Shown piece by piece: positions 3,587-16,891 of a stretch of DNA of 26,749 bases. This stretch comes from a virus. The notes below the pieces were generated by a model. The model made no database searches and was not told the origin of the DNA. It saw only the letters and a program-made list of their open reading frames with translations. A program made the position numbers and the translations under genes. Each line of letters starts with the position of its first letter. The stretch's first letter is position 1. The stretch covers positions 1 through 26,749 of IMG/VR virus record IMGVR_UViG_3300025617_001204. One strand, given 5' to 3'.

Positions 3587-3940
3587 ATGAATCCAAAAAA
3601 AGCAAAAGAATTTACGGGAGTTGGTTCAACCAAGTATAAAGGTCCTAAAAAGGATAAAATGGGTCCTATAACAAAATCAGAAAACGAAAGTTATGGTTTT
3701 AAAAATAAGGATGTAAGTCATTTAAAAAATAAATACAGGCTTATAAATAAATATAGTTGGGGGGGAGGAAAACATACCAAACAAGATAGCGTTAAATATG
3801 ACGAAGGTTTTAAATTTGGGCAAAAAAATCATTATAACAAACATATCAACATGCGACAGGCTGATAATTACTATGATCAAGGAGTTAGGGAAGGAAGAAT
3901 GGTTGGTAGTGGGAAAATAAAGCCGAAAGATAAAAAATAA
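3587..3940 (+). CDS. Unknown basic protein, EFTGVGSTKYKG family copy 1
   Basis: 117 residues, starting 3 bases after the previous stop. The N-terminus carries EFTGVGSTKYKG followed by PKKDKMGPITKS and YGFKNKDV. The same motif in the same order opens the next gene, so the two are paralogues or share a duplicated segment. The rest (YDEGFKFGQKNHYNK, ADNYYDQGVREGRMVGSGK) is Gly/Tyr/Lys-rich with two similar GYxxGxxxG-type stretches that suggest a short internal repeat. It ends in a Lys tail (KIKPKDKK). No known domain is recognised. The family and charge resemble its neighbours, so a virion-associated or DNA-binding role is possible. Confidence 0.75.
   Translation: MNPKKAKEFTGVGSTKYKGPKKDKMGPITKSENESYGFKNKDVSHLKNKYRLINKYSWGGGKHTKQDSVKYDEGFKFGQKNHYNKHINMRQADNYYDQGVREGRMVGSGKIKPKDKK
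3608..3643 (+). repeat. Duplicated 36-base segment, copy 1 (partner 4012-4047)
   Basis: This segment encodes EFTGVGSTKYKG. Its partner at 4012-4047 matches at 33 of 36 bases, and all three differences are silent third-position changes. Protein-level constraint plus a fairly recent duplication or gene conversion explains this best. Confidence 0.85.
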
Positions 3941-3951
3941 ACATTAATGTT

Positions 3952-4278
3952 ATGGATCCGTTAAAAGTCAAAAGCAAGAAAGCTAAAATTAAAAGCAATC
4001 CTTCTAGTAGAGAATTTACTGGAGTTGGTTCAACCAAATATAAAGGAAAGAAAAAATCAGAACAAGGTCCAAAGACAAAGCCATCTGGATATGGTCTTAG
4101 ACCAGATAGAGCTGACTTAACTAAATCTAGTTATGAAAGCACCCCTTTCAAAAACCGAGACATCGATACGTTGATGAGTAAAAGAAGAAAGTTTGTTCCT
4201 GAGCCAGTAAGAGATGTACAGGTTACAAACAAGAAAGGTGAAAGCAAAATGATTTACAAACCAGGAAAAAATAATTAA
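3952..4278 (+). CDS. Unknown basic protein, EFTGVGSTKYKG family copy 2
   Basis: 108 residues, 11 bases after copy 1. After a Lys/Ser leader it has EFTGVGSTKYKG, then KKKSEQGPKTKP and SGYGLRP, colinear with copy 1. The FKNRDIDTLMSKRR stretch corresponds to FKNKDVSHLKNKYR in copy 1. The C-terminus (PVRDVQVTNKKGESKMIYK) is unlike copy 1 and looks like a short beta hairpin. Function is unknown. The shared blocks point to a tandem duplication followed by divergence of the C-terminal halves. Confidence 0.75.
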   Translation: MDPLKVKSKKAKIKSNPSSREFTGVGSTKYKGKKKSEQGPKTKPSGYGLRPDRADLTKSSYESTPFKNRDIDTLMSKRRKFVPEPVRDVQVTNKKGESKMIYKPGKNN

Positions 4279-6507: not shown

Positions 6508-6966
6508 ATGAAAATAAGCGATCACATTTCTTTTAAAGAAGCAATTAGATCGAATACAGCTAAAAGACTAAACATAGATAATAGTCCGAATAGTTACCAG
6601 ATATCAAATATGGTGGGAACTGCTGTAAAAATCTTTGAACCTCTTCGAGAGTGGGTTGGAGGACCTGTTAAAATAAATAGCTTTTTTAGATGTGAAAAAT
6701 TGAATCGTGCTATTGGTGGAGCAAAACGCTCGCAGCATATGGAAGGAAGAGCTATGGACATAGATGACACATTTGGTCACAAAACCAATGCCGAGATGTT
6801 TCATTTCATTAAACACAATCTAAACTTTGATCAGTTGATATGGGAGTTTGGAAACGAAGAGAATCCAGACTGGATACACGTATCTTATGTTTCAGATGAC
6901 GAAAATAGAGGCAGATGCCTTATCGCTGAAAAAATAGATGGTAAAACTAAATATAGAACTATATGA
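6508..6966 (+). CDS. M15 family peptidase, probable endolysin
   Basis: 152 residues, a zinc D-Ala-D-Ala carboxypeptidase-like fold (peptidase M15A / M15_3 type) expected to cut peptidoglycan cross-bridges at lysis. Zn ligands are readable as His77 and Asp84 in SQHMEGRAMDID, and His124 in WIHVSY. Glu113 in FDQLIWEFG is the likely catalytic acid. The N-terminal ISFKEAIRSNTAKRLNIDN and INSFFRCEKLNRAIGGAKRS are also typical. Length fits stand-alone phage endolysins of this type. There is no signal peptide, so it needs a holin, and the next gene, overlapping by ATGA, supplies one. Confidence 0.93.
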   Translation: MKISDHISFKEAIRSNTAKRLNIDNSPNSYQISNMVGTAVKIFEPLREWVGGPVKINSFFRCEKLNRAIGGAKRSQHMEGRAMDIDDTFGHKTNAEMFHFIKHNLNFDQLIWEFGNEENPDWIHVSYVSDDENRGRCLIAEKIDGKTKYRTI

Positions 6967-12273: not shown

Positions 12274-12759
12274 ATGAAACTATTATATAAAGATCTTAAC
12301 GTAGTTTTAGCCGTTATAAACGAAAACGAACCAGCATATGCTATCTTAGACGGAAATGATTTATGCGAAAAAGTAGCTAATAATGTGAGCGTGAATGTGG
12401 GTGACTGGAAACAGGAAGGACAGCCAGCAAGAGCTATAACAGATAGTGAGTGGAAAAGTTATTTAGGAACAAACACACATTTAACAAAGGAAGTGATGCT
12501 TTCTAACTCAGGATCAGCTATTGAAGAAAAGCTAATCGATGCTTCAGAAGAAATAACAACTTATTGGAGCTCAATAGATATGCATCAATCAGTACCGCTA
12601 GATGAAACTTGCTTGTTACTTTCTTTATTTGATGACATGGAAAAATACCAATATTTTGGCATTGTAAGCGTAGAGTCACTCAAAAGCGGTAACCCTGTTT
12701 TAGTAAAAGCTCTAGAAGCACCAGAAACAACCACAACTACCGAAGCACCTGCTGAATAG
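12274..12759 (+). CDS. Unknown 161-residue protein with Thr-rich tail, fibre module
   Basis: An alpha/beta protein of unknown family. The N-terminal third looks like beta strands (LLYKDLNVVLAVINENEPAY), followed by a helical, acidic middle and a Leu-rich CLLLSLFDDMEKYQYFGIVS. It ends EAPETTTTTEAPAE, the same poly-Thr-Ala-Pro style used between the domains of the large protein downstream. It may be a fibre chaperone, connector or collar component. The shared tail suggests that it once continued into, or exchanged segments with, the neighbouring fibre gene. No transmembrane segment is evident. Confidence 0.7.
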   Translation: MKLLYKDLNVVLAVINENEPAYAILDGNDLCEKVANNVSVNVGDWKQEGQPARAITDSEWKSYLGTNTHLTKEVMLSNSGSAIEEKLIDASEEITTYWSSIDMHQSVPLDETCLLLSLFDDMEKYQYFGIVSVESLKSGNPVLVKALEAPETTTTTEAPAE

Positions 12760-12784: not shown

Positions 12785-15700
12785 ATGGCAAGCAGTCTAT
12801 CAGATAAGGCTATATTTATATACGATACATTCTTTAGTGCGGATATCACACAAGGGCAGCTTGATTCCCAAATAAAACAATCTTCTCTTTTTAGGATTGC
12901 ATTCGAAGAGGTTATATCTTATCCGAATCTTTTAGATCAAATGAAAGCTCACGACAGGTACGATGAGCTTATTGGTATTAATACCGAAGCGTATCAAATG
13001 ATATCTGATAATGCTACAAGAGAAGAGAATTCGCAGCTTGAAGCAAATGCATTTATATTTATCACAAACGAAGAAAATAGTGCTTCTGATTTTGGTAACT
13101 TTTTAAATACAGTATCTGGTCATATTGGTTTTGGTAAAATTATTAATAACCCAAGAACAGCCTATGAAATTGCATCTAATGCTCATGCAGTAGATCTAAT
13201 TTTAGGAAACGATGAAGCTGTTGCTGCTCTTTTAAATGCACCCAATGGGTTAACTGCTTTTGGGAAAGATGCTACATCAGCACAAAAAATATTTTCACAA
13301 GACGAGATCTTCAAGTCGCTAAGGTCGTCTCTTAGATTTAATCAATACCAAGTTTTACCAAGTCAGCCAGATAATGTGGCTCATAGGGTAAGATATGTTG
13401 GTGGTAAGTATATTATAGTAGACGACAATAACAATTATATTATGGTCAGCGATGATATGTATAATTGGACAAAAGTTTTTCACCCAGGATTGCTTGCCTT
13501 TAGAGCTGATGCAAGGGCAGATTGCATTGGATACGATCCCATTAACAAAGCATGGTTTTTCCACACAAGGGTAGCCAATCAGCCTCCAGTATACACGAAA
13601 GATTTTGTTAACTGGAATAATGTGTCTGGTACTTTTGGTAATAGTTACGGTACCACTATGGCTTATTTTGGTGGGAAGATATGGTGTAATTTTAGAAGTG
13701 CAGCAAATGCCACTAAAATAGGTTTCATTTCCTTGTCAGAGGGACAAGAAAGTTACAGCATCACTGAATTAGCTGTACAACCAGGATGGCTTGGGTCTTA
13801 CGGTGTTTCACCAGAATTTAGTGGTCAGGATGGAGACTATCCCTATATGATGTGGACGGACGGAGGCTATCAAGGTTCTTACATAGATAAGTACGGAATT
13901 TATAATAACAGGACGAATTCACAAGGAAACAGCTCCTGGTTTTATCTTTTTGATTCAACTTCTACAGGTTCAAGGGGACAAAGATCTTTGACATATGCTA
14001 ACGAAAACTTTTACGTATCTTATTACTATTCTGCTTCTAGTGACACCAGAATTGGTTTGTCAAAGTTCACTTTTACAGAAGAAGATTTTGAGTCAGGAGA
14101 TAACAATAATTCTACTAGCGTAGGAAGGGCTGTAAGCTATTGGTATCATTACGAGGGAACGACTGTAGTAGATGTTATATATAAGAACGGAGTTTATATA
14201 GCCTCTTACCCTAGCGGATATGCAACCAGTTTAAATGGTGTGGTCTGGGATAAGCAATTATTTGATGTGACCTATGAATTTAGAATCACAGATGTAGACG
14301 AAAGAGGTTTTGTAGGATGGGTTCCAGGAACAGATTTTGTTTTATCAAGCTACGATGCAACAGTATCTTCTGATTTAACAACGACAACTACAACTACTAC
14401 AACTACAGCGCCACAAAACCTACCTGAAGGAGTAACAGAGCTTGAATGCTTGATTGATACGACCGATGCTAGTGTTTTGGAATACAACGGAACTAAGATG
14501 GTTTTTAATAACAAGGACTATTATGAAAACACAAATTACGTTGTAACCACTGGTCAGTATAAAATATTGAATGTGCCAGAAGAGTATCCAATAGCTGTTC
14601 TTAACTATGGAAAATCACAAAACATAACTTACACAGGTGATATAAACAAAAAACACTTTAGTAAAGTTGTGGGGACTGACGCAGATCATGTATATGATTT
14701 TTTCTACGGTGACGTAACTATAAATGTAAAGGGCAACTTTGAACGTATTAGCTTATATTATTACAAGAAGCCTGGATTTACAGGATATTTAGGTATGGAA
14801 AAGATCCTTGTTCATCAAGACTATCTTTCAAATGGAGGCACAACTGCTGCTAATGACACCAGCAAAGTCTCTGATACTTCAATATATGCTGCGTCTGTCA
14901 GAAATTTTGACTGCGTAGGAAACGAAGCATTAGAGAAAACGGATTTAGTTAATATTGTATATACTACAACTACAACTACAGCTACTCCTTCTTACACAGA
15001 GATAATACCTCCAACAACAACTACTACTACTGCTGCTCCTGATTATGGGGATGAAAACTATACCACAGGAATTTCATTGATACCAGGAACGGAATATAGT
15101 ATTACTTTGGATGGACCAATTGCCGATAAGTTGGCTATTGACGGAACGACATTCGAGGATGCTGCAGCAGCAGGAAATAGATATGTATTAGGTGTTGGAA
15201 CATATATTTTCAATGTTGAGGCAGATTTGCCTATAGCCTTTGAAAACGCAACATCATCAGGCTATTTTGGACCACAACATTCTAACGTAAGTTATACAGG
15301 TGATTTTTATAAAAGATCTTCTAAAGGAATAAATGACGTTACTTATCATTTTTATCACGGTGAAGTAATACTTATAGTAGACCAGCCTTTCGTAACATTA
15401 AACTTGGTTACATTCGACACTGCTTATTCACCAGCCAACAATGCTTTTAGTTGGGATAGAAGCACAACCACAACAACTACATTGGCTCCAGCAACAACAA
15501 CCACTACAGATCCACAAACTCAGTATACTAGATGTTTGATTGAAGATGTGACAGTTACAGAATCTGCAGGAAACTATCTTTTTAATTCAGCTCCCTACGA
15601 AACAAATACAAAGTTGGGTATGAATACTGGTGTTTACATTTTTAGAGGCGTTCCTCAGACACACCCTATTGCATTTTTAAACTATGGAAAATGGAATAGC

Positions 15701-16402
15701 ATATCATATACAGGAGATCCAATGAAAAGTATTACTCACTTGGCTGAAGACGGTCATGAGTATTCTTATTATTATGGAGACGTTACTGTAAATGTAAATG
15801 GAGACTTTGGGATGATTAGTTATGATTGTAGCAATCATGGATATATGGGTGGACAAGACAGAATTTTGTTTTCAAGTAATTGTCCAGTTGCTGTACAACC
15901 AACAACAACGGCAGCACCTACCACCACAACGACTACTACTGTAGAACCGAACTCTATAACTACCACTAGTACTACTACTACTACTACTAGAGCTACTACA
16001 ACGACCACTACCACAGCAGCTCCTACATCAGCAGAATATTGTCTGGTTAGCGGATCACAAGGAAATATTGTTACATATGACAAAAATGGTCAATTAGAGT
16101 ATGTGTTTAATGGAAATAGTGGTCTTTATGGAATGACAACAGGAACTTACACTTTTAAAAACGTAAGTGCATCACATCCGATTGCTTTCCTTAACTTTGG
16201 TAAAACAAACCTTGTTACATATTCTGGCCAATATAATGCTGGTAACAAACAAGGTGTAGATGGAAATCAATATAGCTACTACTATGGAGATGTAACGGTA
16301 ACAATTAGCGGAGACTTTGGATTCTTATCTTACGAGTGTTACTACCACGGATACATGGGAGGACAAAATAATATAATATACGATAACACAACATGTTCTT
16401 AA
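12785..16402 (+). CDS. Giant fibre/adhesin: propeller-like region plus four cupredoxin-like domains
   Basis: 1205 residues. Residues 1-190 are helical (LSDKAIFIYDTFFSADITQG; VDLILGNDEAVAALLNA). Residues about 195-525 hold repeated strand sets such as VGGKYIIVDDNNNYIMVSDD / MYNWTKV and PVYTKDFVNWNNV, like BNR/sialidase-type propeller blades, without a visible active site. Then four domains of 110-130 residues follow, separated by poly-Thr-Ala-Pro linkers. Each has a strand of the HPIAFLN type, then YTGD, a YYYGDVTVxV strand and a final SYxCxxHGYMGGQ strand. Copies 3 and 4 keep His960/Cys1015/His1018/Met1021 and His1131/Cys1185/His1188/Met1191. It is probably a distal fibre displayed on the virion. 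The cupredoxin assignment is my inference from motif spacing. Confidence 0.8.
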   Translation: MASSLSDKAIFIYDTFFSADITQGQLDSQIKQSSLFRIAFEEVISYPNLLDQMKAHDRYDELIGINTEAYQMISDNATREENSQLEANAFIFITNEENSASDFGNFLNTVSGHIGFGKIINNPRTAYEIASNAHAVDLILGNDEAVAALLNAPNGLTAFGKDATSAQKIFSQDEIFKSLRSSLRFNQYQVLPSQPDNVAHRVRYVGGKYIIVDDNNNYIMVSDDMYNWTKVFHPGLLAFRADARADCIGYDPINKAWFFHTRVANQPPVYTKDFVNWNNVSGTFGNSYGTTMAYFGGKIWCNFRSAANATKIGFISLSEGQESYSITELAVQPGWLGSYGVSPEFSGQDGDYPYMMWTDGGYQGSYIDKYGIYNNRTNSQGNSSWFYLFDSTSTGSRGQRSLTYANENFYVSYYYSASSDTRIGLSKFTFTEEDFESGDNNNSTSVGRAVSYWYHYEGTTVVDVIYKNGVYIASYPSGYATSLNGVVWDKQLFDVTYEFRITDVDERGFVGWVPGTDFVLSSYDATVSSDLTTTTTTTTTTAPQNLPEGVTELECLIDTTDASVLEYNGTKMVFNNKDYYENTNYVVTTGQYKILNVPEEYPIAVLNYGKSQNITYTGDINKKHFSKVVGTDADHVYDFFYGDVTINVKGNFERISLYYYKKPGFTGYLGMEKILVHQDYLSNGGTTAANDTSKVSDTSIYAASVRNFDCVGNEALEKTDLVNIVYTTTTTTATPSYTEIIPPTTTTTTAAPDYGDENYTTGISLIPGTEYSITLDGPIADKLAIDGTTFEDAAAAGNRYVLGVGTYIFNVEADLPIAFENATSSGYFGPQHSNVSYTGDFYKRSSKGINDVTYHFYHGEVILIVDQPFVTLNLVTFDTAYSPANNAFSWDRSTTTTTTLAPATTTTTDPQTQYTRCLIEDVTVTESAGNYLFNSAPYETNTKLGMNTGVYIFRGVPQTHPIAFLNYGKWNSISYTGDPMKSITHLAEDGHEYSYYYGDVTVNVNGDFGMISYDCSNHGYMGGQDRILFSSNCPVAVQPTTTAAPTTTTTTTVEPNSITTTSTTTTTTRATTTTTTTAAPTSAEYCLVSGSQGNIVTYDKNGQLEYVFNGNSGLYGMTTGTYTFKNVSASHPIAFLNFGKTNLVTYSGQYNAGNKQGVDGNQYSYYYGDVTVTISGDFGFLSYECYYHGYMGGQNNIIYDNTTCS
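14444..16399 (+). repeat. Four tandem cupredoxin-like domain copies with Thr linkers
   Basis: Approximate copies are 14444-14822, 15059-15455, 15530-15883 and 16037-16399. Linkers of consecutive Thr codons (any ACN) lie at 14378-14407, 14963-14980, 15014-15031, about 15463-15510 and about 15901-16020. Copies 3 and 4 are most alike and also share a Cys at each end of the domain (Cys917/Cys1033 and Cys1086/Cys1204), possibly a disulfide or a domain clamp. Copies 1 and 2 keep the fold pattern (PIAVLNYG...YTGD; PIAFEN...YTGD) but not the ligand residues. Confidence 0.8.
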
Positions 16403-16414
16403 ATAAATAAAAAA

Positions 16415-16891
16415 ATGGCAAAGCAAGGCATAGATTTAGGTGTAGCAGGTGACCTAACAACTGGAGACAACATCAGAGATGCTTTCGATAAGGTTAACGA
16501 TAACTTTACTGAAGTATATTCTGATATTGTAAACCTGCAAAATGATGACGCAAATGACGTTACACAAGTTAATGGACGTACAGGTAATGTTGTACTAAAC
16601 ATTAATGATGCAAAGTATAGTGTTGCAGAGGTTGCAACAAGTACAACGGCGGTTGCAGGAGCTATTTATGTTCTTACGGCTAACGTTATTCTAACACTTC
16701 CAGCAACACCTGCAGTTGGAGATAGTGTAAAAATAGCAAACCTTTCACAAGTTGACACTTGTCAGATTGCAAGAAACGGTGAAAAAATATTGGGACTTGT
16801 TTCGGACTTAACGTTGAACAACAGATATAGTTCATTCGAGCTTGTTTATAGCGGATCTAATAAAGGGTGGGTAATAATAGGACAAAACTAA
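16415..16891 (+). CDS. Short tail fibre protein, 158 residues
   Basis: Starts after AAATAAAAAA. The N-terminus GVAGDLTTGDNIRDAFDKVN / DNFTEVYSDI is the common phage fibre motif 'GDxLRDAFxKVNxNFTELY'. Then VNGRTGNVVLNINDAKY, another fibre motif, and a beta-rich C-terminal domain with YVLTANVILTLPATPAVGD, DTCQIARNGEKI and WVIIGQN. This small complete fibre or collar protein probably trimerises. It lies between the giant fibre and another virion protein. Its exact place in the virion is unknown. Confidence 0.8.
   Translation: MAKQGIDLGVAGDLTTGDNIRDAFDKVNDNFTEVYSDIVNLQNDDANDVTQVNGRTGNVVLNINDAKYSVAEVATSTTAVAGAIYVLTANVILTLPATPAVGDSVKIANLSQVDTCQIARNGEKILGLVSDLTLNNRYSSFELVYSGSNKGWVIIGQN

Follow-up and report, generated by a model that had tools for sequence, protein, structure and literature searches.

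The tail fibers of phage T4 (gp37) and of Alteromonas phage R22Y carry iron-binding HxH motifs, with a role in receptor recognition advanced as the Trojan Horse hypothesis (PMC11705849), and tail proteins containing a YHYH domain are predicted to be metal-dependent (PMC7824862). The probable tail-fiber protein analyzed here comes from the virus record of an uncultured aquatic phage, of 26,749 bases ("the window" hereafter means this whole stretch of DNA). It has in common with the iron-binding fibers that metal sites are proposed on a phage tail fiber, but the ligands and their setting are different, and no H-x-H pair (two histidines at spacing 2) is found in it. Of the published ideas, that of iron-binding fibers comes closest to ours, though it involves another motif. 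The YHYH domain is likewise a conserved domain with a predicted metal site, and it co-occurs with the module described below in another viral protein; it is, however, a different domain and was not found in the window protein.

Amicyanin and other PF00127 proteins resemble the window module in the order of their ligands, in the C-x2-H-x2-M spacing, and in a profile homology that runs via an intermediate family. They differ in that the window module has a longer His–Cys spacing and a terminal cysteine pair and is part of a large probable virion protein, and in that the window family has no direct significant sequence match to them; no methylamine dehydrogenase gene was recognized within the 26.7-kb window. 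A module of cyanophages and pelagiphages is homologous, has an identical set of ligands, and is located in virion structural, tail-fiber, and baseplate proteins, whereas the HGYMGG ending, the conserved terminal cysteine pair, and the arrangement of four in a row on Thr-rich linkers are features of the window protein. The cupredoxin superfamily and its ligand set are already known; the large viral branch that we assign to it is unnamed in the libraries scanned, and no paper on a cupredoxin in a tail fiber, a cyanophage, or a virion was found in the open-access literature, and such a protein may be described elsewhere.

A probable tail-fiber protein with four module copies

The features of the 1205-aa protein, and the gene that follows it, are as follows (window positions):

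12785..16402 (+): 1205-aa probable tail-fiber protein with four tandem module copies (ORF, translation, homology search)
12785..13339 (+): residues 1-185, N-terminal region that is conserved and probably forms the attachment end (identity to relatives)
13385..14134 (+): residues 201-450, most variable region, candidate receptor-binding part (16-48% identity, two relatives)
14378..14407 (+): residues 532-541, Thr-rich linker preceding copy 1 (sequence)
14447..14914 (+): copy 1, C555-C710; ligand positions occupied by Y-Y-K-G, no site, terminal Cys pair present
15152..15460 (+): copy 2, spanning residues ~790-892; ligand set absent (homology search)
15464..15508 (+): residues 894-908, Thr-rich linker from copy 2 to copy 3 (sequence)
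15533..15883 (+): copy 3, C917-C1033, full ligand set (sequence, homology search)
15662..15664 (+): His960, first of the proposed copper ligands in copy 3 (sequence, alignment, profile comparison)
15827..15847 (+): CSNHGYM with Cys1015, His1018, and Met1021, proposed ligands of copy 3 (alignment, profile comparison)
15920..16015 (+): residues 1046-1077, Thr-rich linker from copy 3 to copy 4 (sequence)
16040..16396 (+): copy 4, C1086-C1204, at the C terminus; ligand set complete; model pLDDT 95.7
16175..16177 (+): His1131, first of the proposed copper ligands in copy 4 (sequence, alignment, profile comparison)
16337..16357 (+): CYYHGYM with Cys1185, His1188, and Met1191, proposed ligands of copy 4 (sequence, alignment, model)
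16415..16891 (+): downstream gene, N-terminal match to T4 gp9/10 (baseplate/tail-fiber connector)

The identification of this protein as a fiber is probable and draws on gene neighbors and architecture. The gp9/10-like product of the next gene supports a tail location, and a gene upstream of the 1205-aa ORF matched tail-fiber families. Nothing relevant was found when the fiber was searched directly against Pfam, PHROGs, NCBIfam, and PDB sequences, and neither the whole fiber nor its N-terminal 532 residues matched anything in the phage collection (tblastn); since no fiber homolog was detected in that collection, the evidence for a virion location is indirect. The gene directly before the fiber (12274-12759, +) also has a Thr-rich end, TTTTTEAPAE.

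Residues 1-150 were 62–100% identical to those of complete relatives, with identity dropping beyond them in the fiber comparison, and the N-terminal part alone was found in two further loci (91% and 77% identity). The variable middle part probably contacts the host; an attachment end combined with a host-contact region is the usual layout of a fiber. A structure model of residues 186-899, built from four sequences, was too low in confidence for use (pLDDT 41). Segments bearing tryptophan within or after residues 201-450 (YNWTKV, VNWNNV, and GVVWDKQ) resemble repeat blades, and a beta-propeller is one conceivable form of the middle part.

When copy 4 was compared with all six reading frames of the window, exactly four copies were recovered, every one in the 1205-aa protein, and the C-x2-H-x2-M motif occurs twice in that protein. 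Tandem copies, with this motif in copies 3 and 4 and a histidine of HPIAFLN lying 54–55 residues upstream, had been described in the first-pass annotation, and translation and search agree with it: H960 lies 55 and H1131 lies 54 residues before the ligand cysteine. The amicyanin residues used there for comparison, Cys92, His95, and Met98 (with His53), are correctly numbered on the 1aac sequence, in which the His–Cys spacing is 39, making that of the window longer. Copies 3 and 4 each conform to the type-1 pattern of a histidine followed by Cys-x2-4-His-x2-4-Met on the last loop, and each contains three cysteines, i.e., the terminal pair (C917/C1033 and C1086/C1204) and the ligand cysteine. One could suppose that the motif arose by chance in a low-complexity fiber, as the protein has many Thr-rich stretches, yet this is vanishingly unlikely: one or more C-x2-H-x2-M motifs appeared in 0.165% of 20,000 residue shuffles and two in none of the 20,000, and the ligand set is common to dozens of viral contigs, so that the family alignment refutes a chance origin.

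Module family and relationship to blue copper proteins

Relatives of copy 4 in IMG/VR numbered 69, and a profile-guided scan reported 194 related stretches, 80 of which were kept. No bacterial or archaeal relative was found among 84,980 species, represented by one genome each and scanned with the two most conserved patterns. Most contigs encode a single module, often in proteins of ~500–1500 residues with Pro/Thr-rich linkers, and in other proteins the module occupies many internal positions; four copies per protein were seen only in the window clade (L001-L005 and L007). What is particular to this clade is the series of four tandem copies on Thr-rich linkers, two of them siteless, behind a highly variable region. 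Module-carrying proteins have matches in several PHROGs, whose functions are structural, tail-related, or unknown, and may also contain fn3, Mtd_N, and YHYH domains; this variety of matches and domain partners indicates that the module is mobile between virion proteins. One protein combines the module with YHYH, fn3, and Mtd_N domains (L058:4593-8951). In another (L069:6420-8264), partial HGYMGG modules lie beside a second, cyanophage-like C-x2-H-x2-M stretch (YYQCSNHSIM).

The cyanophage-type module came to light through a weak tblastn match between a relative of the window module and Cyanophage S-TIM5, whose structural protein (YP_007006091.1) contains NHPIRF...YYYCVNHSLMGG. The tblastn matches of copy 4 itself in the phage collection were weak, covered at most 56% of the query, and fell mostly in nucleotide-kinase genes; we treated them as chance. 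At E 1e-3, 276 phage records carry the cyanophage-type module, mostly those of Synechococcus and Prochlorococcus phages, with Pelagibacter and Methylophilales phages also represented, and a search with reversed sequences as control for this profile returned no matches. The first-pass annotation had considered two such sites joined by Thr linkers unusual for a phage fiber; by this number of records with a related module, such a site as such is not unusual in phages. Among the matches listed, the proteins were mostly annotated as tail fiber, baseplate, structural, or hypothetical, and none of these annotations mentioned copper. The module sometimes occurs twice per protein, and Pfam, PHROGs, and NCBIfam recognized it in none of the copies scanned.

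Profile comparisons linked these families in two steps. The window family aligned with the cyanophage-type family at a probability of 96.7–97.3% (hhalign), with the HP histidine and C-x2-H-x2-M aligned. In turn, the cyanophage-type family matched a cupredoxin set of 26 sequences (amicyanin and Copper-bind proteins from genomes) at a probability of 83% (P 8e-6, score 34.5) with the four ligands in register, against a maximum score of 13.7 among 60 column-shuffled controls; a combined viral profile scored 29.8 against a shuffled maximum of 13.1. The window family alone scored 14.5 against the same set, with a shuffled maximum of 16.2, and was thus not significant. Its profile matched amicyanin at P 0.035 over 23 columns, short of a direct sequence relationship, and PF00127 Copper-bind was detected above its curated cut-off neither in the window nor among 38 family members. 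The earlier reading of the domain as amicyanin-like held largely, though not in full: the profile chain, together with the structure model and the joint loss of ligands described below, argues for a cupredoxin-type domain with a type-1-like set, whereas an identity as amicyanin itself was rejected, the scores of the window family against Copper-bind falling within those of shuffled controls. The claim of homology to blue copper proteins depends on this two-step chain through an intermediate family rather than on any direct match.

For copy 4, AlphaFold2 returned a confident all-beta model (pLDDT 95.7, pTM 0.88). In domain numbering, the proposed ligands are His47, Cys101, His104, and Met107: the first histidine immediately precedes strand 49-52, the cysteine lies at the end of strand 96-101, and the second histidine and the methionine are in the loop before the last strand. 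In the PDB, most Foldseek matches were to copper proteins (amicyanin, pseudoazurin, plastocyanin, multicopper oxidases, and copper nitrite reductases), with amicyanin near the top and several of its entries reaching a probability of 0.93–0.99; none had an E-value below 1e-3 (best 7e-3). A second aligner gave Z 5.6–6.7, with the non-cupredoxin SO1698 leading or tied and copper proteins following; we did not accept values under 8 as establishing the Greek-key beta-sandwich of cupredoxins, as unrelated folds also appear at 5.6–6.7 and the aligner itself cautions that scores of this size may reflect a common arrangement. The structure prediction and search that had been suggested yielded a confident all-beta model with mostly cupredoxin neighbors, and no single match that was significant. 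Among predicted viral structures, the best match was R4TIA3 (E 6e-12, TM 0.88, 35% identity), followed by a protein of Aureococcus anophagefferens virus and then a YHYH-domain protein of Mimiviridae sp. ChoanoV1; the BFVD entries among the close matches were R4TIA3, A0A076FH44, and A0A5B8IDC5. From the matches in Aureococcus anophagefferens virus and ChoanoV1, the fold of copy 4 appears to occur also in viruses of eukaryotes.

Ligand retention and candidate roles of the module

We evaluated the conservation of the proposed ligands across the family. The HP histidine and the cysteine, histidine, and methionine of the motif are invariant in a 38-row alignment, an invariance that is partly by construction because C-x2-H-x2-M was the criterion for choosing rows and was itself present in some of the search peptides. 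When all profile-aligned copies spanning the four positions were counted, with no ligand filter and with search bias remaining, all four ligands were present in 168 of 177 distinct viral copies. Five of the nine exceptions keep no ligand, three keep one, and one keeps three. Were an equal number of losses spread independently, ~28 copies with some loss would be expected, and the minimum in 5,000 simulations was 23, against the 9 observed; this simulation ignores relatedness, and the exceptions are spread over several different contigs. Since three or four ligands are missing together in eight of these nine copies, the four residues behave as one unit, and this near all-or-none retention suggests that the site, where kept, functions as a whole.

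Within the window clade, the full ligand set of copy 4 is present in each relative compared. Copy 3 is missing one ligand in L001 and the entire set in L007, and copy 1 has none of the four in any relative. The terminal cysteine pair persists throughout these copies, copy 3 of L007 included, which sets the pair apart from the site and leaves the ligand cysteine as the odd one out. A disulfide through Cys1015, which the first-pass annotation had named as an observation that would speak against a copper site, is accordingly disfavored, the terminal pair being kept where copy 3 lost its ligand cysteine.

These data also bear on the nature of the metal. The domain could hold zinc or iron, or no metal, and be a plain Ig-like fiber decoration with a conserved polar patch, as might be argued from copies 1 and 2, which retain fold-defining sequence without ligands, and from a structural match of moderate strength. 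We consider this unlikely, if still worth weighing, given the joint loss of three or four ligands and their register with Copper-bind proteins via the intermediate family.

The reading that we favor, and hold to be reasonably probable, is that of a tail fiber with four cupredoxin-fold modules in which the predicted copper of copies 3 and 4 belongs to a structural, metal-stabilized surface module. The fiber would consist of a conserved N-terminal part, a variable host-contact middle, and a C-terminal run of four such modules with Thr-rich linkers. Through their His, Cys, His, and Met set, copies 3 and 4 would bind extracellular copper or copper present in the lysate, while copies 1 and 2 would have the same fold and no metal site. 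The metal would mainly lock a small module into a rigid, protease-resistant shape, the module acting as an Ig-like fiber-surface or adhesion unit, and electron transfer would not be its main purpose. That the siteless copies keep the sequence pattern of the fold suggests that the fold is useful without metal. The sequence, the ligand set, its conservation and joint loss, and the homology chain to Copper-bind proteins are what the data show directly. Within this reading, we infer the fiber location, the copper occupancy, and the structural role; the structural role is its least sure part and the cupredoxin relationship its surest.

Type-1 ligand sets serve electron transfer in cellular cupredoxins, and a complete type-1-like set that is retained as a unit could likewise form a redox-active blue copper site, transferring electrons or quenching or generating oxidants at the host surface. 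This role is very unlikely in our estimation, as no redox partner gene was recognized among the proteins scanned, and the long flexible linkers and siteless copies favor a mechanical one. A copper lure, i.e., an exposed site recognized by a copper-uptake or copper-binding outer-membrane protein of the host and thereby aiding attachment, would fit the C-terminal position of copy 4 and the constancy of its ligands in the relatives compared, and has a published counterpart in the iron-binding HxH tail fibers and their Trojan Horse receptor hypothesis (PMC11705849). It nevertheless seems distinctly unlikely: the most variable and most host-contact-like part of the protein is residues 201-450 rather than the modules, the module lies at many internal positions elsewhere, and the cyanophage-type module is found in baseplate proteins too.

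A broader proposal, that blue-copper modules on the virions of marine phages, and possibly of large algal viruses, work at the surface of the host, either binding receptors in a copper-dependent way or serving as redox groups, and make the virion a carrier of copper, is speculative and rather improbable. If the module does bind copper, widespread structural proteins of marine viruses would be metalloproteins, named so in no database consulted, and the idea of a metal-carrying virion would be extended from iron to copper. The related module of cultured cyanophages makes the biological role accessible to tests in phage-host systems that already exist, and the copper claim itself can be checked with a single small domain.

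Source phage and neighboring genes

The terminase, the portal, and a structural protein match those of an uncultured podovirus from Manatee Spring at 63%, 54%, and 58%, respectively, and those of Flavobacterium elemo phages at 42–54%. From these similarities, the source phage is most likely a podovirus related to Flavobacterium/Cellulophaga phages, and its host is probably a member of Bacteroidota. Module profiles had no match in the Manatee Spring and Flavobacterium elemo phage stretches (38 and 42 kb).

The window also encodes a GroEL (Cpn60; 160-1752, +) and, in an overlapping TTG-start ORF, a match to GroES (Cpn10; 1725-2003, +), an arrangement shared with related podoviruses. A Peptidase M15 domain protein (6508-6966, +) is probably an endolysin, and the Manatee Spring phage encodes a counterpart. 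Two adjacent ORFs (3587-3940 and 3952-4278, +) are ~46% identical across 60 residues and probably represent a tandem duplication.
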